A program made the position numbers and the translations under genes. This document shows positions 3,800 to 27,409 of a stretch of DNA of 43,285 nt, piece by piece. The notes below the pieces were generated by a model that was not told where the DNA came from, did no database searches, and saw nothing but the letters and a program-made list of their open reading frames with translations. Each line of letters begins with the position of its first letter. Position 1 is the stretch's first letter. Source of the stretch: a virus. The stretch is taken from positions 1 to 43,285 of the IMG/VR virus record IMGVR_UViG_3300029327_000059, one strand, 5' to 3'.

Positions 3800-6700
3800 A
3801 TGTCCGACTACGACCGTATAAAAGAATCCATCCACATCCGCCAGATCATCCCCCAGGAAACCGGATTTGCGCTGAATGACAAAACCGGCCACCTGTCCGA
3901 ATGCCCCTTTTGCAAACACAAGGATTGTTTCAGCATCCCCAAGGGCGGCAAATATGACAACACCTGGAAATGCCACTCCTGTGACAAGGGCGGTGATCTG
4001 TTTACCTTCCTGGAGTTGTTCTACAACCTGGATAAAGCCGGGGCGCTGAAAAAGGGCGCGCAGTTGGCCGGCATCCCCCTTGAAGAGAAAAAACGCAGCA
4101 AGCCGCTCCCCAAGCCCGACCAAATCAGAATCGAGGCGGCAGAGTATTATCACGCCCGGATGATCGAGAACGGCGGCAAGGAATATTTCATCGACCGTCG
4201 CGGCCACCGCATGGAGACGCTGCAGGCCGAAAAATGCGGCTGGTCAGACGGGCGGCTGCTGGACCATCTGCGTTCCAAGGGATTTACTGACGTCGATATC
4301 GTTGAGAGCGGGTTGGCAAGGGAAAAGGAGATCGAGGGCGGTACCCGGGTGCTGGATTTTTTCCCGAAAGGAATGGCAATCTTTCCGCACTGGTCGCATC
4401 GACGGGTTCTTCATTTCACCATGAAGGATCCACGCCAGATCCCGGCAGCGGAAAAGTACAAGTTCCAGATGCCAAACGACAAACGGGACAAGAAGTGGTG
4501 TTTCTATGGTCAGGACGCACTGGAGAAATACGAAGAGGTCATTCTGGTTGAGGGCGAAAACGACCGCCTGCAGGTGCTGGATTCAGGCATTCCCTATTGT
4601 ATAGCCATGATCGGCCAGATCAGCGATGACCAATTGAAGGCACTGGTCAGCCGCTGTAAAACGAAACATCTCTTTCTCTGGACGGACAATGACGACGCCG
4701 GCCGCAAATATATTCGCAAGATATGCAAAGCCCTCCCGGAGGCGTATGTCCGCGTTATCGTGTATGGCAAGGATGAGGATGATCCGGATAGCTATCTGCG
4801 GCAAGTTGAAGGCGATCACAAGAAGCACATCCGCCAATTGCAACTGGATTCGGCCAACATGGATTATATCGCCTGGGAGATTCTGCAGGCGTCGTTCATT
4901 CCGACCCTCGAGGGAAGACTCGGGCATCTGAAGGCACCGGCAGGGGATGACCGAGCAAATGTGTTCCGCTTGATCGGCCGTCACCAGTTGGCACAGCAGC
5001 AGGTTTATTCTGAAAAACTGATTGCTCTAGGCTTTACTCCAAAAGCTATTGAGCAACAGCTTGATTTTTCGAATGATCTTTACAAGCAGATCACGGACTA
5101 TTACGAGACGGTCGGTGGCCAGCGCTGTGCCGACCCGATCGTGCTGGCCGAGATCATATACAAATTCTTTGCCCACCATGGCCGGTTCTATTACGACGCC
5201 ATGGATACAGTCTGGATGATCTACCAGAACCGCACGTATGAGGTGAGCAAGAACACTTCCTTTAACGCCATCATGCTCAAGATGACCCGTCTGATCGTGA
5301 GCCAGGCGCCGGGCACGCAAGTGTGGGATGCTCTGGTGCATACAGCCTACCTCAACGGCCGGCGCATTGACATGGGCCGCTGGATTCATAGCGATACCGA
5401 ACGCGACACCATCTTTTATAACCTGAACAGCCCCAATAACTTAATTTTGAAGCTCTCCCGGGATCGCATTGAGGAAATCCAGAACGGCATGAATGATGAT
5501 CATGTGCTGCTGGCATCGTCACACAAGATCATGCCGTTCAATTTCCTTCCGGATGCCGAGATACAAGAAGGCATGACGTTACTGAAAGAGCTGGTGTTTG
5601 ACAATCTGGCTGTGAGGAAAGAGCAGAGGTTTTTGATTCTCTGCTGGCTGATTTCCGGTTTTTGCCCGGATCTGGCGCCGTATCAGTTTCTGATGAAGTT
5701 CGAGGGGTACGCATCGAGCGGCAAGTCCACGGCGGCCAAGCTGGCCACGGCGTTGATGTACAAGAGCGAGGATCTATCGGACAACTCAGCGGCGGCGGCT
5801 TTCTCGTCGGCTGCCAAGAATCCGATGGTGGTTATCGACAACCTGGAGAACAAGGACCTGAACCGAGGCTTGCAAAAGTTCCTTCTGCTTGCGGCGACAC
5901 GTGGCCAAAAAGAAAAGCGCAAGGGCGGATCGGATACCGATACTATCGAGGAAAGCCCAAGGGCTCTTGTATGCGTTACAGCAATTGAGCCCTTCACCCT
6001 GGCCGAATTGATATCACGCACGTTTGTGCTTCCCTTCGACCGCCGGGTACACGGATCGGATAACTTCCACGAATCGGACGTGCTGGAGCAGATCAAAAAG
6101 AAACGCGATCTGATCCTGTCGGCTATTCTGCGTTTCCTCCAGAAAGAGATCCTGCCGAACCTGGACCAGCGCAAAGAGTTCATGACGATCCTGAACAAGC
6201 AGTTCAAGGGCCATTCCAAGGACCGCACTAATGCCTATCTGGCCGTGTTGATGCTGATCCTGGAGAAGATGCTGAAGTACATCCCCTACTACGAAGGTGC
6301 GCAAGCCGAATTGATGGACGGGTTTGATATCGGTGACAAAGATGTCTATACCGCGTGGATCGAGGAGCAGAACACTTCCAGCCGCGAAACAGAGGTCGGC
6401 AGTAATAACATTCTGCAGCTTCTGGAGGGGCTGGTAAGGGAGTACACACAGTTCTACAAAGGGAAAACATCGTTTATCCCTTGTTACGAACAAGGCTACG
6501 AAGAGAACGTTTTTGTAATGGAACATCCTGAGTATGGCATCAAGATGATCAAGACGGTTCCAGAGACGCTTTGTTCTGTTTGCGGGAACCATCCTGCGGA
6601 TTGCGTATGCGGCGGAGACCGTTACAGCAAGTCGATCATCGAGTTCGTAGTTACATCGGCCGAGCTGGTTGATGCCTTCGACCGAATGGCCAAGAACATC

Positions 6701-6874
6701 GGCAAGCGCAACCCATATGATTCGGCCAGCATATTCATTGCCAGGCTGCGCAATGACCGGGACTTGTTGAAGAAAAGTGGCTGGGATCTATTGACGTCCG
6801 AAGGGAACGAGCCTTATTTCAAAATCATACGGGGTAAACGGTTCCTGAAGTTCAGCCACACGTTGATCAGGTAG
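3800..6874 (+). CDS. Primase-helicase (zinc finger, Toprim, AAA+/SF3-like ATPase), P4 alpha-like
   Basis: A 1024-residue replication protein. Order: a CHC2-type zinc finger (CPFC at 35-38, CHSC at 58-61, then GGDLFTFLELF), a Toprim primase core (VEGEND near 250-255 and WTDNDDAG near 294-301), a linker, and a C-terminal ATPase with Walker A YASSGKST (637-644) and Walker B-like MVVIDNLEN near 675-685. A second Cys-rich motif (CSVCGNHPADCVCGG) lies near residue 924. This is the domain order of P4 alpha-type proteins that prime, unwind and recognise their own origin. An upstream ATG at 3746 is in frame, but MSDYDRIKES at 3800 gives the natural family start. The iteron array begins 2 nt after the stop codon, which supports an origin-binding role. 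Confidence 0.85.
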   Translation: MSDYDRIKESIHIRQIIPQETGFALNDKTGHLSECPFCKHKDCFSIPKGGKYDNTWKCHSCDKGGDLFTFLELFYNLDKAGALKKGAQLAGIPLEEKKRSKPLPKPDQIRIEAAEYYHARMIENGGKEYFIDRRGHRMETLQAEKCGWSDGRLLDHLRSKGFTDVDIVESGLAREKEIEGGTRVLDFFPKGMAIFPHWSHRRVLHFTMKDPRQIPAAEKYKFQMPNDKRDKKWCFYGQDALEKYEEVILVEGENDRLQVLDSGIPYCIAMIGQISDDQLKALVSRCKTKHLFLWTDNDDAGRKYIRKICKALPEAYVRVIVYGKDEDDPDSYLRQVEGDHKKHIRQLQLDSANMDYIAWEILQASFIPTLEGRLGHLKAPAGDDRANVFRLIGRHQLAQQQVYSEKLIALGFTPKAIEQQLDFSNDLYKQITDYYETVGGQRCADPIVLAEIIYKFFAHHGRFYYDAMDTVWMIYQNRTYEVSKNTSFNAIMLKMTRLIVSQAPGTQVWDALVHTAYLNGRRIDMGRWIHSDTERDTIFYNLNSPNNLILKLSRDRIEEIQNGMNDDHVLLASSHKIMPFNFLPDAEIQEGMTLLKELVFDNLAVRKEQRFLILCWLISGFCPDLAPYQFLMKFEGYASSGKSTAAKLATALMYKSEDLSDNSAAAAFSSAAKNPMVVIDNLENKDLNRGLQKFLLLAATRGQKEKRKGGSDTDTIEESPRALVCVTAIEPFTLAELISRTFVLPFDRRVHGSDNFHESDVLEQIKKKRDLILSAILRFLQKEILPNLDQRKEFMTILNKQFKGHSKDRTNAYLAVLMLILEKMLKYIPYYEGAQAELMDGFDIGDKDVYTAWIEEQNTSSRETEVGSNNILQLLEGLVREYTQFYKGKTSFIPCYEQGYEENVFVMEHPEYGIKMIKTVPETLCSVCGNHPADCVCGGDRYSKSIIEFVVTSAELVDAFDRMAKNIGKRNPYDSASIFIARLRNDRDLLKKSGWDLLTSEGNEPYFKIIRGKRFLKFSHTLIR

Positions 6875-6875
6875 G

Positions 6876-7196
6876 TGGTGCAGTCTCTGCCGGGTGCAGT
6901 TGGAGTGGTGCAGTCCTCACAGAGAAGGTAGGATCGAGAGGTAAAACGGGCCTTTCGGTTCTTATTTTAGGGTTACCGCGCGCACGTGGGGCGCATTTTT
7001 CAGAGACTGCACCACTGCACCACTTTTTAAATAAGTTATTGATTTTATTTATTATTAGCGTGGTGCAGTTGGTGGTGCAGTTGTGGTGCAGTGTGGGTGC
7101 AGTTGTGGTGCAGTCCGGCGGGGTTTTGGGAGACTGCACCACGTCGCAAATATAGCATTGATGCGGGTTTGAAGGCAAGTGGTGCAGTGGTGCAGT
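6876..7196. repeat. Iteron array with AT-rich tract: candidate replication origin
   Basis: Thirteen copies of a 9-bp motif TGGTGCAGT (two with initial G). Plus orientation: 6876, 6892, 6906, 7061, 7073, 7084, 7095, 7106, 7180, 7188. Minus orientation: 7006, 7014, 7133. The central five are spaced 12, 11, 11 and 11 bp, about one helical turn. Overlapping pairs at 7006/7014 and 7180/7188 form a perfect 20-bp inverted repeat (7004-7023 with 7179-7198). An AT-rich tract (7023-7057) lies between the minus pair and the central block and would suit duplex opening. Known iteron origins, including P4, have this make-up and often lie beside the initiator gene. No gene is supported in 6875-7460. Confidence 0.75.
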
Positions 7197-8937: not shown

Positions 8938-11082
8938 ATGGAAAAACTTAGTGAACCGAAAAAGTGGACCAAAAACGGTTTTGTCGCACATCTAGCTGAT
9001 TTTGACAAACGGATGAAGGACCGGGCTTTGGCATTTATCATTGGTTCGGGCGCGTCACAACCTTCCGGGATCAAAACCGGTGGAGATCTGGTTTGTCAGT
9101 GGTTGAAGGAAATACATCTCCGCGAAGATTTCGATAAACTCAGCCTAGAAGACTGGGCGAAGCCGGATACCTTGGGAATACCAGATTTTGAGTATTCACG
9201 GGCTGCTGAGTTTTACTCTGAAATTTTCCAGCGTCGTTATGCCCATGATCGGGAAGAAGGTTTTGCATTCCTTGAAGAGACGATGGAAGAGAAAGAGCCA
9301 AGCCTCGGTTATTCGATTCTGGCTGAACTCCTTTCTCAAACTCGTCACAAAGTAGTGGTTACCACCAACTTTGACAACCTGGTGGCTGACGCCTTGGCAA
9401 TACATGCCCGGAAACATGCTCTTGTGTGTGGCCATGAATCCTTAGCTGGTTTTATTCGCCCCCACCTGCGCCGTCCGCTAGTGGCCAAAATCCATCGAGA
9501 CCTCTTTCTTGCACCCAAAAACGATCCAGTCGGGGTTGGCTGCCTTGAAGATGGTTGGACCACTGCTCTTACTAGGCTTTTTGAACATTACACGCCTGTC
9601 GTGATTGGGTATGGCGGTAATGACGGCAGTCTCATGGGGTTTCTGGAGAAGGCCCAATTGCGAGGCGGACTCTGGTGGTGTTACCGGTCCGCTGATGGCA
9701 AGCCAGTGGAGAAAGTAAGAGAACTTGTGGCAAAAAAACAAGGCCGCCTGATTCCGATCATTGGCTTTGATGAATTTATGCTAGAGGTGGGAGCCAAGTT
9801 AATTCCCAATTTCGATATCACGGAAATTGGAAGCCGGATTGAAGGATTGGGAAAAGAGAGAGCCAGGCGTTATCGAGACGAAGCGAGCAAACTTTATGAC
9901 AGGATCAATAAAGCAGATGCGGATAAACAGGTGGAACTGGAGCCGACTCGGAAGGCATTACAGGCAACAACGGAGCAACCGCGTAACTGGTGGGGATGGG
10001 AGTTAAAAGCCCGTGCCGAAGCTGATCCAGTGAAACGGGAAGATATTTATCTAGAAGGTTTGCGGCATTGTAAAGATTCCGCTGACTTAACCGGCAACTT
10101 CGCAGTTTTTATGGTCAACATCCGCAAAGATTACGACGAGGCAGAGCGCCTCTATCGCAAGGCACTGGAACTCGACCTGACCAATGCTATCACTACCGGC
10201 AACTTCGCACTATTCATGCATCACATCCGCAAGGATTACGATGAGGCAGAGCGCCTCTATCGCAAGGCACTGGAACTCGACCCGACCAATGCTATCACTA
10301 CCGGCAACTTCGCACTATTCATGCATCACATCCGCAAGGATTACGATGAGGCAGAGCGCCTCTATCGCAAGGCACTGGAACTCGACCCGACCAATGCCAA
10401 CACTACCGGCAGCTTCGCACTATTCATGCATCACACCCGCAAGGATTACGATGAGGCAGAGCGCCTCTATCGCAAGACCCTTGAGCTCGAACCAGCCAAT
10501 GCCAATACTACCGGCAGCTTCGCACTATTCATGCATCACATCCGCAAGGATTACGATGAGGCAGAGCGCCTCTATCGCAAGGCACTGGAACTCGACCCGA
10601 CCAATGCCAACACTACCGGCAGCTTCGCACTATTTATGGACGAAATTCGCAAGGATTACGACGAGGCAGAGCGCCTCCATCGCAAGACCCTTGAGCTCGA
10701 ACCAGCCAATGCCAATACAACCTGCAACTATGCTGGTTTCCTGTTGTCTCGCGGTCGGTGGGACGAGAGTCGACAATATGCAGACCTCGCAGAAACATTG
10801 GTCACGGGTGAAACGAGCCAGACCACTGCTGAACTATTATTTTACCGGGTGCTCCTTACCGCGAAGCAGGGTGATGATCCCGAACCAGATCTAGTACGGC
10901 TCAAGTCGTTACTCTCTAAAGGATTTTTACGTGGTAAATGGTCGTTTGACTCCCATTTAGAGGCTATGGCACCATTTCTTGATGAAGTCAGATTGAAATT
11001 TTTCCGTGCTGTGGCTGATGCGATATTGGATGAAAAGAAAGTTAGTGACTTGGAGACGTTTAGTGAGTGGCAAGCTATCTGA
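8938..11082 (+). CDS. SIR2-domain protein with TPR repeats (putative anti-phage effector)
   Basis: A 714-residue cytoplasmic protein with GAGGGA before its ATG. Residues 30-240 form a SIR2-like domain: GSGAS (36-40), TTNFDN (142-147), His186 (KIHRD) and GYGGND (224-229), which correspond to the NAD-binding and catalytic elements. From residue 387 come six nearly identical 35-residue TPR-type repeats (KDYDEAERLYRKALEL) and a degenerate seventh. SIR2 domains in phage-defence proteins destroy NAD+ once a phage signal is sensed, and repeat domains are often the sensor. It lies alone between the Mor-like gene and a membrane-protein gene, as cargo. NADase activity and defence are inferred. Confidence 0.75.
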   Translation: MEKLSEPKKWTKNGFVAHLADFDKRMKDRALAFIIGSGASQPSGIKTGGDLVCQWLKEIHLREDFDKLSLEDWAKPDTLGIPDFEYSRAAEFYSEIFQRRYAHDREEGFAFLEETMEEKEPSLGYSILAELLSQTRHKVVVTTNFDNLVADALAIHARKHALVCGHESLAGFIRPHLRRPLVAKIHRDLFLAPKNDPVGVGCLEDGWTTALTRLFEHYTPVVIGYGGNDGSLMGFLEKAQLRGGLWWCYRSADGKPVEKVRELVAKKQGRLIPIIGFDEFMLEVGAKLIPNFDITEIGSRIEGLGKERARRYRDEASKLYDRINKADADKQVELEPTRKALQATTEQPRNWWGWELKARAEADPVKREDIYLEGLRHCKDSADLTGNFAVFMVNIRKDYDEAERLYRKALELDLTNAITTGNFALFMHHIRKDYDEAERLYRKALELDPTNAITTGNFALFMHHIRKDYDEAERLYRKALELDPTNANTTGSFALFMHHTRKDYDEAERLYRKTLELEPANANTTGSFALFMHHIRKDYDEAERLYRKALELDPTNANTTGSFALFMDEIRKDYDEAERLHRKTLELEPANANTTCNYAGFLLSRGRWDESRQYADLAETLVTGETSQTTAELLFYRVLLTAKQGDDPEPDLVRLKSLLSKGFLRGKWSFDSHLEAMAPFLDEVRLKFFRAVADAILDEKKVSDLETFSEWQAI
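10096..10725 (+). repeat. Six tandem 105-bp coding repeats
   Basis: Units start at 10096, 10201, 10306, 10411, 10516 and 10621. Several units differ by only a few bases, far closer than independent TPR evolution would leave. Units 4 and 6 share a variant block (KTLELEPANANTT) and units 2, 3 and 5 another (KALELDPTNA), which suggests duplication of a two-unit block or gene conversion. Such arrays expand and contract by recombination. Confidence 0.9.
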
Positions 11083-17760: not shown

Positions 17761-17907
17761 TTTAAAATATTCTTTTAAAGCATTCCCTTTTCCGTTCATT
17801 ATTTTGTCAAACAAAGGAATATTTTCAGTTCATAGCCTAAATGTCCAATTGAGGATGATCGTGCGACAACAGGTTGAACATAAAAAAATATGTCTGGAGG
17901 ACTAACA

Positions 17908-18729
17908 ATGAACACAGGAATAGCATTGACTATCGGACTTAATTGCGTTGATCCAAATCATTATGCTGGATGGAACGGCGAACTGAACGCCTGCGAGGCA
18001 GATGCAGAGGATATGGCAGCCATTGCAGCATCTCAGAAATTTAATGTATCTACTTTGTTAACGAAGGATGCGACCAGAAACGAGGTTCAAAAGAAGATTC
18101 AGGAAGCATCTAATAAGCTAAAAAAAGGTGATATCTTCATGTTGAGTTACTCAGGACATGGAGGGCAACTACCAGACACAAACAATGACGAACCTGATGG
18201 TCAGGACGAAACATGGTGTCTCTATGATGGACAATTTGTAGATGATGAACTGTATAGTCTTTTTGCAAATTTTGTACAAGGGGCGCGAATACTGGTCTTT
18301 TCCGACAGTTGTCATAGTGGCACTGTCGTAAAGGCGCTTTATTATGAAGCAGTAGCATCTTCCCACGCGGCGGAGGCTCGATATCGAGCGATGCCAAAGG
18401 ATATAGCACTTCGAACATACCGTATAAATAAGGGTTTTTACGACAAAATTCTTCAAGACCCAAAAAACAAAGAAAGTGAAGCACAGGTCAATGCTTCAGT
18501 CCTTCTCTTATCAGGTTGTCAGGATAATCAACTTTCAAATGACGGAAATTTCAATGGTCTTTTCACCGGCCAATTGTTGCAAGTGTGGAAGAATGGCTTG
18601 TTCGTAGGGAATTACATTGATTTTCACAAAGAAATTGTGAAACGCATGCCGCCAGACCAAACACCAAATCTATTTCGAGTTGGAACAATTGATTCAGGGT
18701 TTGAAACACAAAGACCGTTTACAATTTAA
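17908..18729 (+). CDS. Caspase-like cysteine peptidase (metacaspase, C14 clan)
   Basis: A 273-residue protein with GGAGG 8-12 nt before ATG 17908. It has the caspase/metacaspase fold markers: an N-terminal strand and loop (IALTIGLNCVDP), catalytic His84 in SYSGHGG, and catalytic Cys135 in SDSCHSG. Size fits a single p20/p10-like domain with no added sensor domain. Bacterial caspase-like peptidases act in regulated cell death and anti-phage defence, cleaving partners such as toxins or pore formers. Here it is cargo between the portal-MuF gene and a relic of its 3' end; an AT-rich promoter-like stretch (17700-17890) precedes it. The partner may be the secreted coiled-coil or membrane proteins downstream, which is inference. 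Confidence 0.8.
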   Translation: MNTGIALTIGLNCVDPNHYAGWNGELNACEADAEDMAAIAASQKFNVSTLLTKDATRNEVQKKIQEASNKLKKGDIFMLSYSGHGGQLPDTNNDEPDGQDETWCLYDGQFVDDELYSLFANFVQGARILVFSDSCHSGTVVKALYYEAVASSHAAEARYRAMPKDIALRTYRINKGFYDKILQDPKNKESEAQVNASVLLLSGCQDNQLSNDGNFNGLFTGQLLQVWKNGLFVGNYIDFHKEIVKRMPPDQTPNLFRVGTIDSGFETQRPFTI

Positions 18730-22532: not shown

Positions 22533-25436
22533 ATGAAAGACTCAAGTACCCCATACAGTTTGCGCGGGTCACTATGGCATCAGTGGGATCTGCACGTGCA
22601 TACACCATCCTCGTTTGAGTACGCAGACAAAAGCATTACTGACGAACAGATCGTGAATGGCCTCATTCAGGCAGGTTTGCGGGCGGTGGCTATAACGGAT
22701 CACCATACAATCGACGTATCTCGCATAACAAATTTACAGAAGCTTGGCAGTGGAAAGCTAACTGTATTCCCAGGCATCGAGCTCCGAGATGATCATGGCG
22801 GGGATCCGATCCATTACATATGCATCTTTCCGGAGAATTGCAACCTCAATGACGTCTGGACCACACTTCAAGGAAAGTTGGAACTGACGGCTACGGCAAT
22901 TGCAAGCAAGGGCGGTAATGAGAAGGTGTACATACCAATTGAGCAAGGCGCGAAGGAGGCACACGCTCTCGGGGGGATCGTATCAATTCATGCCGGAGCC
23001 AAGAGCAATTCAATAGAGGGCATCAGCAACAAGGAGCAATTTCAGCGACGGATCAAGTACGACATCGCCAATGATCACGTCGATCTGATGGAAATTGGTC
23101 AGATTAAAGACGTGGACCGCCACTACAAGACAATTTTTCCCGCTACAGGCCTAAACAAACCTCTTGTTCTGTGTTCCGACAACCACAAGGTGACTGAGTA
23201 TTCTACGAGAGCCCCCCTTTGGTTCCGTGCTGATCCGACATTTCGTGGTCTCCTCATGGTCCTGCGCGAACCCCGCGAGCGTGTATTCATTGGTGATCGA
23301 CCGCCAGAATTGATTCGTGTCGAACAGAATCGAACGAAGTACATTAGGAGCATATCTTTTCAACGGCGAGACTCCGCTCCACCGTCAGAGCAATGGTTTG
23401 GCGGCACGGTAGAATTCAATTCCGGATTAGTGGCTATCGTTGGCAACAAAGGTAGTGGCAAGAGCGCCCTGTCTGATATGCTCGGCCTTTTGGGCGCGAC
23501 GAAGAACGGAGATGCTTTTTCTTTCTTGAGCAAGGGTCGGTTCCGTCACCCCTCAGGTGGCTTGGCCGAACATTTCGACGCCACGATTGAATGGGAATCG
23601 GGCGACATATTGACCAAATGCCTTGCCGATGCAGTCAAATCCGAGGAAGTGGAACGTTTGAAGTACCTTCCCCAAGATCACGTTGAAAATGTCTGCAACG
23701 AATTGGCTGGCCTTGGCGAGGATGGGTTCGAGAAGGAGCTCAAGGCCGTAATTTTCTCGCATGTGCCGGAGGCTGAAAGACTAGGTCACTCAAATCTTGA
23801 CGATTTGGTCCTTTTCCAGACCGGTGAGAAACAGAAGCGAATCGACTCCCTGCTCAAACAGCTCCGCGAGATTAGTCGTTCGCGGGCAATTCTCGAAGCC
23901 CAGGCCGATCCGACAGTACGGAAAGAACTCACGGAGAAGATCAACCGACGGAAATTAGAACTTGAAGCGCATGAAAAAGCTAAGCCGGAAATGGTCACTG
24001 ACCCGTCTGTGGAAGATAATACAACAGCACCGGATACAGCTTTGCTTGACAAGCTAAAAACTGCGGAGTCATCCAAGGATAGAATCATTGCAAACATTAC
24101 CAAACAGGCTGAAGCGTTACGTGTAGCAGAGCGTCGCAATGCTGTCGCTAAACGGCTTCTTGAAAAACTGGACAACTTCGAAAAAGAATTTGACGTATTT
24201 AAGTCATCACTAAAAGAGGACGCTTCAGAACTCGGTCTTTCAGCAAACGAGTTGGTGTCGCTGACAATCACACGCGACAAGCCCGAAAATATTCGAAACG
24301 CGGCGGCGACAGACTCGAAAATAGCCAAGGATACTCTGGAGAAGATTGAACCCGCCGGACTCCGTAAGCAGCTTGAAACAGTTGAGGGGCAAATTACTGA
24401 ACTGCAAGTTCAGTTTGACGCTCCACACCGAGCCTATCAAGCTTATCTGAAAGCGTTGTCAGAATGGCAAGTTATGGGGACTGCGATTGAAGGATGTGAA
24501 ACTGATGCCGAGTCACTGAAGGGCTTGGAGCACAGTTTGGCGACCTTGGATGAACTTCCAACTAAGATCGCCGACACGAGAGACCAACAGACGGCCCTAG
24601 CCCTTCAGATTCATACGGAAAAAATTACACAAGCCGAAGTATATCGCAACCTTTACGCAGCTGTTCAGGGATTCATTAACTCCCATGTTTTGGCAAAAGA
24701 GAAATTGAAGCTTGAATTTCGCGCCGAGTTGACAAGCGAAGACTTTGCTGGCCGGCTTCTTGGTGCCCTATCGCAAAACCGAAAGGGCAGCTTCATGGGT
24801 ATCGAAGATGGGCGAAACAAAGCAAATTTATTCGTTCAAACAACCAACTGGGAGTCAGATCTCTCAGTAAAAGCATTTCTTATAGGTGTCGATGAAGCAC
24901 TCCATACAGATCAGCGCGAAGGGCAACACGGTCCTGTCCAACTTAAAGATCAACTCGCCAAGGGACGCAAGCCTGATGAAGTTTTCGACACTCTCTATGG
25001 GCTCGAATATATCCGGCCACGATACGTTCTCCGCTGGGAAGGTAAGGATTTGTCGATGTTATCGCCCGGAGAGCGTGGCACGCTCCTCTTGGTGTTCTAC
25101 CTGTTGATCGACAAAAGCGATTTGCCGCTTATCATTGATCAACCCGAAGGAAATCTCGACAACCACACAGTTGCAAAGGTGCTTGTCGAATGCATCAAGG
25201 AGGCACGTAACCGCCGCCAAGTGTTTATTGTAACACACAATCCAAACTTGGCTGTGGTCTGCGATGCTGACCAGATTGTACATGCTGAGATGAACAAATC
25301 CAACAATAACACCATCACTTATAAAACCGGATCGCTTGAAAATCCCGAAATGAGTCAATACGTGACCGATGTTCTGGAAGGTACTCTCTGGGCCTTCCGT
25401 GTCCGTGACAAGAAGTACAGTGTGGGCGAACGGTAA
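22533..25436 (+). CDS. PHP-domain ABC/SMC-like ATPase (TrlF type), putative defence protein
   Basis: A 967-residue protein with TAGGAGA before ATG 22533. Residues 15-250 form a PHP phosphoesterase domain: DLHVHTPSS (19-27), ITDHHTID (54-61), GIEL (81-84) and a late CSDNH. Walker A GNKGSGKS spans 304-311; a long coiled-coil arm (about 430-760) follows; then the ABC signature LSPGERG near 842, Walker B LPLIIDQPEGNLDN near 866-880 and switch His in VTHNPN near 900. This is the build of TrlF-type PHP-AAA proteins, related to other SMC-like nucleases found in defence islands. Nuclease or phosphatase activity gated by ATP is likely, by analogy. It begins the last cargo module. Confidence 0.78.
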   Translation: MKDSSTPYSLRGSLWHQWDLHVHTPSSFEYADKSITDEQIVNGLIQAGLRAVAITDHHTIDVSRITNLQKLGSGKLTVFPGIELRDDHGGDPIHYICIFPENCNLNDVWTTLQGKLELTATAIASKGGNEKVYIPIEQGAKEAHALGGIVSIHAGAKSNSIEGISNKEQFQRRIKYDIANDHVDLMEIGQIKDVDRHYKTIFPATGLNKPLVLCSDNHKVTEYSTRAPLWFRADPTFRGLLMVLREPRERVFIGDRPPELIRVEQNRTKYIRSISFQRRDSAPPSEQWFGGTVEFNSGLVAIVGNKGSGKSALSDMLGLLGATKNGDAFSFLSKGRFRHPSGGLAEHFDATIEWESGDILTKCLADAVKSEEVERLKYLPQDHVENVCNELAGLGEDGFEKELKAVIFSHVPEAERLGHSNLDDLVLFQTGEKQKRIDSLLKQLREISRSRAILEAQADPTVRKELTEKINRRKLELEAHEKAKPEMVTDPSVEDNTTAPDTALLDKLKTAESSKDRIIANITKQAEALRVAERRNAVAKRLLEKLDNFEKEFDVFKSSLKEDASELGLSANELVSLTITRDKPENIRNAAATDSKIAKDTLEKIEPAGLRKQLETVEGQITELQVQFDAPHRAYQAYLKALSEWQVMGTAIEGCETDAESLKGLEHSLATLDELPTKIADTRDQQTALALQIHTEKITQAEVYRNLYAAVQGFINSHVLAKEKLKLEFRAELTSEDFAGRLLGALSQNRKGSFMGIEDGRNKANLFVQTTNWESDLSVKAFLIGVDEALHTDQREGQHGPVQLKDQLAKGRKPDEVFDTLYGLEYIRPRYVLRWEGKDLSMLSPGERGTLLLVFYLLIDKSDLPLIIDQPEGNLDNHTVAKVLVECIKEARNRRQVFIVTHNPNLAVVCDADQIVHAEMNKSNNNTITYKTGSLENPEMSQYVTDVLEGTLWAFRVRDKKYSVGER

Positions 25437-26330: not shown

Positions 26331-26359
26331 TTGACAACCCCCCCAATCCCCGTTATACG
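26331..26359 (+). promoter_or_regulatory. Sigma70-type promoter of the C4-like RNA and antirepressor
   Basis: TTGACA (26331-26336), a 17-nt spacer and TATACG (26354-26359) make a near-consensus promoter. Transcription would begin near 26366 and give a leader of about 230 nt before the BRO gene. Within the leader are small hairpins GCCGTT/AACGGC (26382-26400) and TCAAGGAC/GTCCTTGA (26415-26453). Confidence 0.65.
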
Positions 26360-26480
26360 TCACATATCCAAACGTAGGGGCGCCGTTCCCCTTAAACGGC
26401 ACATCTTTTTTCGCTCAAGGACATTTCCCACAACCAGCCATAGCAGTCCTTGAAACCCCTCCGGCATACGGTATTCGTCT

Positions 26481-26561
26481 GCGTGCCGGTAGAGATGCGC
26501 CCTAACCGTGAGGCGGGCGGCGACCTACGTCGTGGATAGTCTCTACCGGCACGCTTTTTTT
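26481..26561 (+). ncRNA. c4: C4-like antisense RNA in the antirepressor leader
   Basis: A 15-bp perfect stem GCGTGCCGGTAGAGA (26481-26495) with TCTCTACCGGCACGC (26540-26554) is followed by seven Ts. The enclosed 44 nt folds into two hairpins, CGCC..GGCG and CGAC-CTAC-GTCG (26521-26532). The second contains CCTACGT (26524-26530), complementary to ACGTAGG (26577-26583), which overlaps the ribosome site of the BRO gene. In phages P1 and P7, C4 RNA lies at the same place, made from the same transcript as the antirepressor, and blocks its translation by pairing at the ribosome site. CCGGCA (26461-26466) could pair with TGCCGG (26484-26489) as an alternative fold. Confidence 0.7.
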
Positions 26562-26594
26562 GTGCCAAAAATCCAAACGTAGGAGGCAAGAAAA

Positions 26595-27164
26595 ATGAAA
26601 AAGGAGTTTGCAACATTCAGGGAATTCAGTTTCGACACGCAGCGGCAGATGGTCAGAACCATGATTGATCGGGACGGCGAGCCGTGGTTCGTAGCGCAAG
26701 ATGTGTGCGATGTACTGGAACACACCAACAGTAGAATGGCTATACAAAGCCTCGAAGAAGACGAAAAAGATGTAAGTAAAGTTTACACGTCCACCGGTGA
26801 AAAAGAGGCCAACATCATCAACGAATCCGGTCTCTACAATCTCATTTTCCGCTCCAACAAAACCCAGGCAAAAGTATTCCGCAAGTGGGTCACCTCCGAA
26901 GTTCTCCCCGCCATCCGCAAGCAAGGCTATTACTTCATCGGCCACCGTCTCAACATTCCCGATGATCTTGACCAGGCCTGCGCTCTCTACACCTGGTCCC
27001 GCAAACAGCGCACCGCCCTTGCCGGGCAGGTCAAAAAGCTGCGCGAAACCGAGCGGGCCTGCCTGGACCGCATTTCCCACGTCTCCCCTCCCCTCCGGAT
27101 CCCGGCCGGTCAGCAGCTTGTGCTGCCGTCCACCGCAACAGAACCAGCGGAGGTGACGCAATGA
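26595..27164 (+). CDS. BRO-family antirepressor
   Basis: A 189-residue protein. ACGTAGGAGG lies just before the ATG. Residues 10-110 are a BRO-N domain (GEPWFVAQDVCDVLEHTNSR, INESGLYNLIFRSNKTQAKV, FRKWVTSEVLPAIRKQGYY). The C-terminal part is helical and ends in a Pro-rich tail. BRO-N proteins in temperate phages act as antirepressors or DNA-binding regulators. Because the repressor at 220-606 has no self-cleavage domain, this protein is a plausible trigger of induction. Its synthesis would be controlled by the C4-like RNA. Its stop overlaps the next start. Confidence 0.82.
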   Translation: MKKEFATFREFSFDTQRQMVRTMIDRDGEPWFVAQDVCDVLEHTNSRMAIQSLEEDEKDVSKVYTSTGEKEANIINESGLYNLIFRSNKTQAKVFRKWVTSEVLPAIRKQGYYFIGHRLNIPDDLDQACALYTWSRKQRTALAGQVKKLRETERACLDRISHVSPPLRIPAGQQLVLPSTATEPAEVTQ

Positions 27165-27409
27165 GCACCCTCACAAAAGCCGGACACGAAGAAGCCCATA
27201 CCTTTAACCACGCAATCGACAAAATTAACGAAGTCCAGTCCCGGCTCACATTCCTCATGGAGTGCGCGCCGCTCAACAGCACCGCCTCCATGTTCACCAA
27301 AGAAGGCGTAAGCGGCATGGCCTGGATGATCAGCGACATAGTGGATTCCCTGACCGAAGCCAGGGATAATCTCGAAAAAATCCTAAAAATGCCCGAGGTA
27401 ACGGCATAA
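27161..27409 (+). CDS. Hypothetical protein coupled to the antirepressor
   Basis: An 82-residue helical protein whose start overlaps the BRO stop by 4 nt (ATGA). It has a His-rich start (GHEEAHTFNHAIDKIN) and a final helix (LTEARDNLEKILKMPEV). A strong terminator follows, so it closes the antirepressor unit. Possibly an antirepressor partner; no family recognised. Confidence 0.5.
   Translation: MSTLTKAGHEEAHTFNHAIDKINEVQSRLTFLMECAPLNSTASMFTKEGVSGMAWMISDIVDSLTEARDNLEKILKMPEVTA

Follow-up and report, generated by a model that had tools for sequence, protein, structure and literature searches.

The stretch of DNA analysed here (43,285 nt, hereafter the window) is an IMG/VR virus record with genes for an integrase, a CII-like regulator, a primase, and terminase, portal, head-decoration and tail proteins. 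A leader RNA followed by a gene for a Bro-N protein is located in its late region, between variable cargo with defence-like genes and the head genes. Defence-like cargo in the window comprises genes for a SIR2-TPR protein (8938-11082; PADLOC Argonaute-associated SIR2 models), a caspase-like peptidase (17890-18729) and a PHP-plus-SMC protein similar to PADLOC Ppl (22533-25436). The closest Bro-N relative, L002, is 93.5% identical to the window over a 2.5-kb segment that runs from Bro-N and reaches into the head genes, and the module is thus stably linked to head genes there; the L002 leader is missing because this sequence begins at a contig end. On the L024 contig the module resides about 10 kb past a portal gene that is 94% identical to that of the window. 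Elsewhere in the window, between the primase and integrase genes, a cluster of direct and inverted, iteron-like GGTGCAGT repeats (6869-7196) is possibly a replication origin; L012 holds a closely similar segment.

The leader is preceded by a sigma-70-type promoter (26331-26359, plus strand, as are all features below unless stated otherwise) consisting of TTGACA (26331-26336), a 17-nt spacer and TATACG (26354-26359). It matches 10 of 12 consensus positions, and a promoter scan demanding T at position 6 of the -10 element overlooks it. Transcription would be expected to start around 26366, with a transcript opening with TATCCAAACGTAGGGG. The two ends of the leader carry an exact 12-nt repeat, TCCAAACGTAGG, at 26367-26378 and 26572-26583. 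The upstream elements are a1 (TATCC, 26365-26369), assigned by duplex prediction, and b1 (ACGTAGG, 26372-26378), assigned by the repeat, duplex prediction and co-change in relatives. The downstream element a2b2 (ATCC ... ACGTAGG, 26571-26583) overlaps the Shine-Dalgarno sequence AGGAGG (26581-26586) of the Bro-N gene, which is part of the segment AATCCAAACGTAGGAGG after the leader's T-run.

The RNA core (26481-26554) folds into a 16-bp stem, P1 (26481-26496/26539-26554), which encloses two back-to-back hairpins, P2 (26498-26519) and P3 (26520-26533), and five unpaired bases. With a z-score of -5.3, the fold was equalled by none of 200 shuffles. P3 presents b' (CCTACGT, 26524-26530), which is complementary to b1 and b2, and the unpaired strand between P3 and P1 is a' (GGATA, 26534-26538), predicted to pair with a and equivalent in position to a' of the phage P1 C4 RNA. 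A run of seven T residues (26555-26561) follows directly 3' of the GC-rich stem, an arrangement resembling, at the sequence level, an intrinsic terminator; a T-run is present in all members of the family described below. An earlier note on this DNA had correctly placed the promoter, a stem with T-run at 26481-26561, CCTACGT in an inner hairpin (the third in our fold) and ACGTAGG (26577-26583) at the Bro-N ribosome site. The stem, given there as 15 bp, proved to be one pair longer, the last pair being U-G, and both the upstream site b1 with its 12-nt repeat and the second contact, a' with a (GGAUA with UAUCC), had been overlooked.

The controlled gene (26595-27164) encodes a 189-aa antirepressor-like protein with a Bro-N domain (PF02498, E = 7e-26; 91.1 bits versus a Pfam cut-off of 25.6) that also matches the PHROG anti-repressor Ant family (E = 1e-45). 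An ORF of 82 codons without a family match (27161-27409) overlaps its stop codon and is probably part of the same transcript. At the other end of the window, a gene on the minus strand (220-606) encodes a candidate repressor of 128 aa, which consists of a helix-turn-helix (HTH) only (PF01381, E = 7e-7) and has no peptidase domain. This agrees with the earlier statement that the repressor lacks a self-cleavage domain, and induction by an antirepressor fits such an HTH-only protein. No operator-like repeat common to the leader promoter and the repressor region was found.

The duplex predicted with each target consists of two blocks, b'/b with 7 to 10 bp and a'/a with about 5 bp. In the window, energies of -20.0 kcal/mol were calculated for the copy at the ribosome-binding site and -26.6 kcal/mol for the upstream copy, where pairing with the b' region runs on into 26379-26385 and a1b1 includes GGGGCGCCG, the partner of the P3 5' arm. 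A single 7-mer match to a ribosome-binding site is weak evidence, and ACGTAGG occurs four times in the window against 1.9 occurrences expected. The triple arrangement of b1, b' and b2 at a ribosome-binding site, on the other hand, was recovered only once when the whole window was dinucleotide-shuffled 300 times.

Scanning viral contigs for sequence patterns yielded seven further loci with the RNA (L009, L010, L011, L024, L026, L036 and L042). Counting that of the window, six distinct versions exist, since the RNA of L024 recurs in L026 and no difference separates L036 from L042 across 650 bases. L026 has the same promoter as the window, and -35/-10-like sites occur at the same place in L009, L011 and L042; the ATCC of a1 is kept in L009, L010, L011, L026 and L042. 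In an alignment of the six RNAs, all 159 of 159 pair cells hold standard pairs; both partners have changed in eight pairs (13 cells) and a single partner in none, and the score exceeds that of all 500 shuffles. As the alignment was fitted to the structure, slid controls were included, and these drop to 34-47% paired. A covariance model built without L042 and L036 recovered both, L042 with 72.6 bits.

The relatives fall into four loop types. CCTACGT faces ACGTAGG in the window, CCTTGGG faces CCCAAGG in L009, L010 and L011, and CCTGTTG faces CAACAGG in L024 and L026. In L036 and L042 the loop CUCUUUUGAC is matched by GUCAAAGGAG at the ribosome-binding site and by GUCAGAAGGG upstream, with one and two G-U pairs, respectively. 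Thus, b' and both of its targets change in concert, and compensating changes at three sites maintain the loop/target complementarity, for which the earlier note had suggested a comparison of related prophages. Duplexes at the ribosome-binding site average -19.9 kcal/mol for same-type versus -12.5 kcal/mol for different-type combinations. The leaders of the window and L026 are 89% identical outside the b elements, whereas only 15 of 27 aligned columns agree inside them (Fisher p = 5e-5). To judge from these alignments, the b elements behave as a specificity element under selection for change.

Bro-N genes follow the RNA in the window, L024, L026 and L010. L009 has a gene for a KilA-N plus KilAC protein at this position, L011 a 73-aa ORF and then a KilA-N plus KilAC gene, and L036 and L042 small ORFs and then a gene for pRha. 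Three unrelated kinds of antirepressor (Bro-N, KilA-N/KilAC and Rha) are therefore found behind one RNA, which points to an antirepressor switch as the shared function. In L010 (220-761), the ATG after the controlled ribosome-binding site opens a frame of 26 codons, Bro-N being encoded in a different one; this is either a coupling like that of icd and ant or a broken or misread gene. L032, a second Bro-N gene of the L012/L024 contig, is not preceded by a C4-like leader.

Further searches added one distant element. The patterns TGCGCNNTNNCCG... and ATCCAAN{2,14}GGGGCGCCGNTCCC revealed no further members; chance pattern matches account for L018-L023, L025 and, apart from L036 and L042, the whole series L033-L055. 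A sequence-blind architecture scanner, which demands a stem, b', an upstream copy and a copy at a ribosome-binding site, was run over 1.68 Mb; it recovered the phage P1 C4, the C4 of an E. coli plasmid and members of the present family, along with two independent false positives, a GTGCA repeat region (in the window and L012) and L048. No relatives of the leader were found in phage and plasmid collections, nor among 398 genomes from the phylum of a Bacillus genome, the latter searched with a model (R1) whose structure was shifted by one column and which had no positive control. The covariance model of the family, R2, gave 30 bits for L014, which is related to the portal locus of the window. 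There (5350-5575), a three-way core with a T-run is preceded by an upstream site and by TTGACA as part of a promoter-like site in the usual place. The upstream duplex reaches -27.1 kcal/mol, while the downstream duplex is no better than chance (22% of random sites), and instead of an antirepressor gene a ten-codon frame and then a DNA methyltransferase gene on the opposite strand follow. L014 is probably a distant C4-like element of the family, which could be a relic or an RNA that stands alone.

Among RNA immunity switches, the C4 RNA of phages P1 and P7 is the textbook example, and C4 antisense RNAs are processed by RNase P to about 77 nt. The annotation of the phage P1 record places promoter, a1, b1, C4 RNA (77 nt), a2, b2, icd and ant in this order, and the Rfam structure comprises a long stem, two hairpins, of which the second has b', and a seven-base strand with a'. 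The leader of the window shares this design (Rfam RF01695): a stem around two neighbouring hairpins and a short unpaired strand, with b' located in the third hairpin and a' 3' of it, a promoter just upstream, a1b1 upstream in the same predicted transcript, a2b2 at the ribosome-binding site of an antirepressor operon, and specificity residing in short variable stretches. The small first ORFs of some relatives recall icd. There are also clear differences. Known C4 RNAs start with GGW and end with CCACC; both are absent from the window RNA, in which a T-run follows the stem in place of CCACC. Furthermore, a2 and b2 are nearly adjacent, a1b1 occupies the 5' terminus of the RNA, and in the window, L009 and L026 the ribosome-binding site is the antirepressor's own, without an Icd in between. 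The C4 RNAs of phage P1 and of L007, an E. coli N15-like plasmid, lack a T-run. Unlike in these two classic C4s, the stem therefore constitutes a terminator-like element.

The earlier note had proposed a search with the Rfam C4 covariance model. This search gave no match in the window region at the gathering score or at E up to 10, and none in L026, L009 and L042, while the positive controls scored 68.8 bits (phage P1) and 82.2 bits (L007). The c4-a1b1 model (RF03163) did not match the window region either, and model R2 did not match the phage P1 C4. As the Rfam model and R2 each miss the other's RNA, common descent with C4 is no more than a possibility, and the Rfam result rules out membership in RF01695. 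The window RNA is hence probably C4-like in its working, yet no recognised RF01695 member. The note's C4-like antisense reading as such gains support from the co-varying complementarity at three sites and from the HTH-only repressor. It was also right in naming a Bro-N target, but wrong in seeing this as a departure from the known systems, because in L007 an Rfam-recognised C4 precedes Icd-like and Bro-N genes.

Taken together, we consider it highly probable that the leader RNA works as an antisense RNA of the C4 kind. By analogy with phage P1 C4, it very probably silences the antirepressor, because relatives change the loop and both matching sites together. The leader (26365-26561) would yield a small RNA whose 3' end is probably set by the stem and T-run, with some transcripts continuing into the Bro-N mRNA. 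The P3 loop b' and the adjacent a' are predicted to pair in two blocks with a2b2, masking the Bro-N ribosome-binding site, and a resident prophage would in this way hold its own antirepressor as well as that of a superinfecting relative untranslated. When the RNA is scarce, the antirepressor would be made and would inactivate a repressor that cannot cleave itself, presumably the HTH-only protein.

The leader may in addition, or even primarily, act as a terminator/antiterminator switch, with the block of translation at b2 being secondary. Such a role is compatible with the C4-like explanation, and as the primary function it falls a little short of an even chance. The nascent a1b1 would pair with b'a' in cis, keeping P1 open and allowing read-through into the antirepressor gene, while mature RNA from a prophage would bind a1b1, so that the stem closes and transcription stops. 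Folding predictions at 37 °C are in line with this scenario. The stem-closed and the best stem-forbidden folds differ by at most 4.4 kcal/mol in all seven leaders, L014 included, and this near-equality suggests attenuation on top of the translation block. The open folds mostly have the loop and a' paired with a1b1 (with b1 alone in L042), and in most of them the 5' arm of the stem is sequestered by a segment such as CCGGCA further upstream; in the window, a possible anti-stem hairpin (26461-26489) pairs CCGGCAU with GUGCCGG of this arm. When the upstream part is shuffled, the gap rises by about 12-21 kcal/mol in six of the seven leaders, and at most 1 of the 200 shuffles per leader comes down to the real value; L014 is not distinct from shuffles (43/200). 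Pairing with a1b1 is, moreover, stronger than with a2b2 in all members except L042, and a T-run directly follows the stem throughout. These models give a good hint that the upstream site may open the stem in cis. However, the support consists of thermodynamic folding energies, b1 pairs with the loop partly by virtue of being a copy of b2, only L009 and L011 have a duplex of spacer and stem arm that is significant by itself, and a 16-bp stem around two hairpins would be an unusual terminator. The C4 leaders of phage P1 (L008, 731-925) and L007 (1851-2041) show the same balance (2/200 and 1/200 shuffles) without a T-run, so near-equal folds need not mean termination.

The CI RNA of phage P4, with its seqA and seqC sites, likewise has a target on each side in one transcript. 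By the same logic, pairing upstream and downstream of the window RNA might cause premature Rho-dependent termination beyond blocking initiation, but with b2 on the ribosome-binding site itself, a T-run belonging to the RNA and nothing that indicates Rho, this is improbable. An ordinary terminator with a chance match to the ribosome-binding site, common as a 7-mer match is on its own, is ruled out because four loop/target sets co-change at three places in relatives.

Antisense RNAs of the C4 kind remain the closest parallel, and a C4-based family has been reported from Proteobacteria and their phages (PMC2864571). IsrK of the Gifsy-1 isrK-orf45-anrP module also ends at an intrinsic terminator, with read-through giving the antirepressor mRNA, and acts in cis and trans on alternative folds; unlike the proposed role of the window RNA, it activates its antirepressor in trans, and its structure is unrelated (PMC4825925). 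In L007, matches to isrK and C4 are two separate elements. Group 1 sRNAs of Acinetobacter baumannii share the C4 fold with a variable target-recognition region, but are of RF01695 type and without known targets (PMC5320573); L014 may be a similar stand-alone case. The sar RNA of P22 also blocks translation of an antirepressor by antisense pairing, although a two-target C4 architecture is not described for it in the review consulted (PMC12197685). No earlier description of the present RNA family was seen in the open-access literature.

L007 shows that a Bro-N gene placed behind a C4 has a precedent. The novel features are a separate sequence family, a stem that runs straight into a T-run, the variety of antirepressors served and how many specificities occur. 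More tentatively, RNAs of the C4 kind could in general be two-state leader switches, in which the loop blocks the ribosome-binding site and pairing with b1 in cis decides whether the stem forms. The near-equal folds, seen also in the phage P1 leader, offer a proposal for the role of a1b1, annotated only as putative in P1. If the stem is indeed a terminator, a resident RNA would shut off the antirepressor of an incoming relative at both transcription and translation, and matching changes at the three sites would create new immunity types. A family that is invisible to Rfam but has the same anatomy, three kinds of antirepressor and at least four loop/target sets suggests that RNA-set heteroimmunity of the C4 kind is wider than catalogued.
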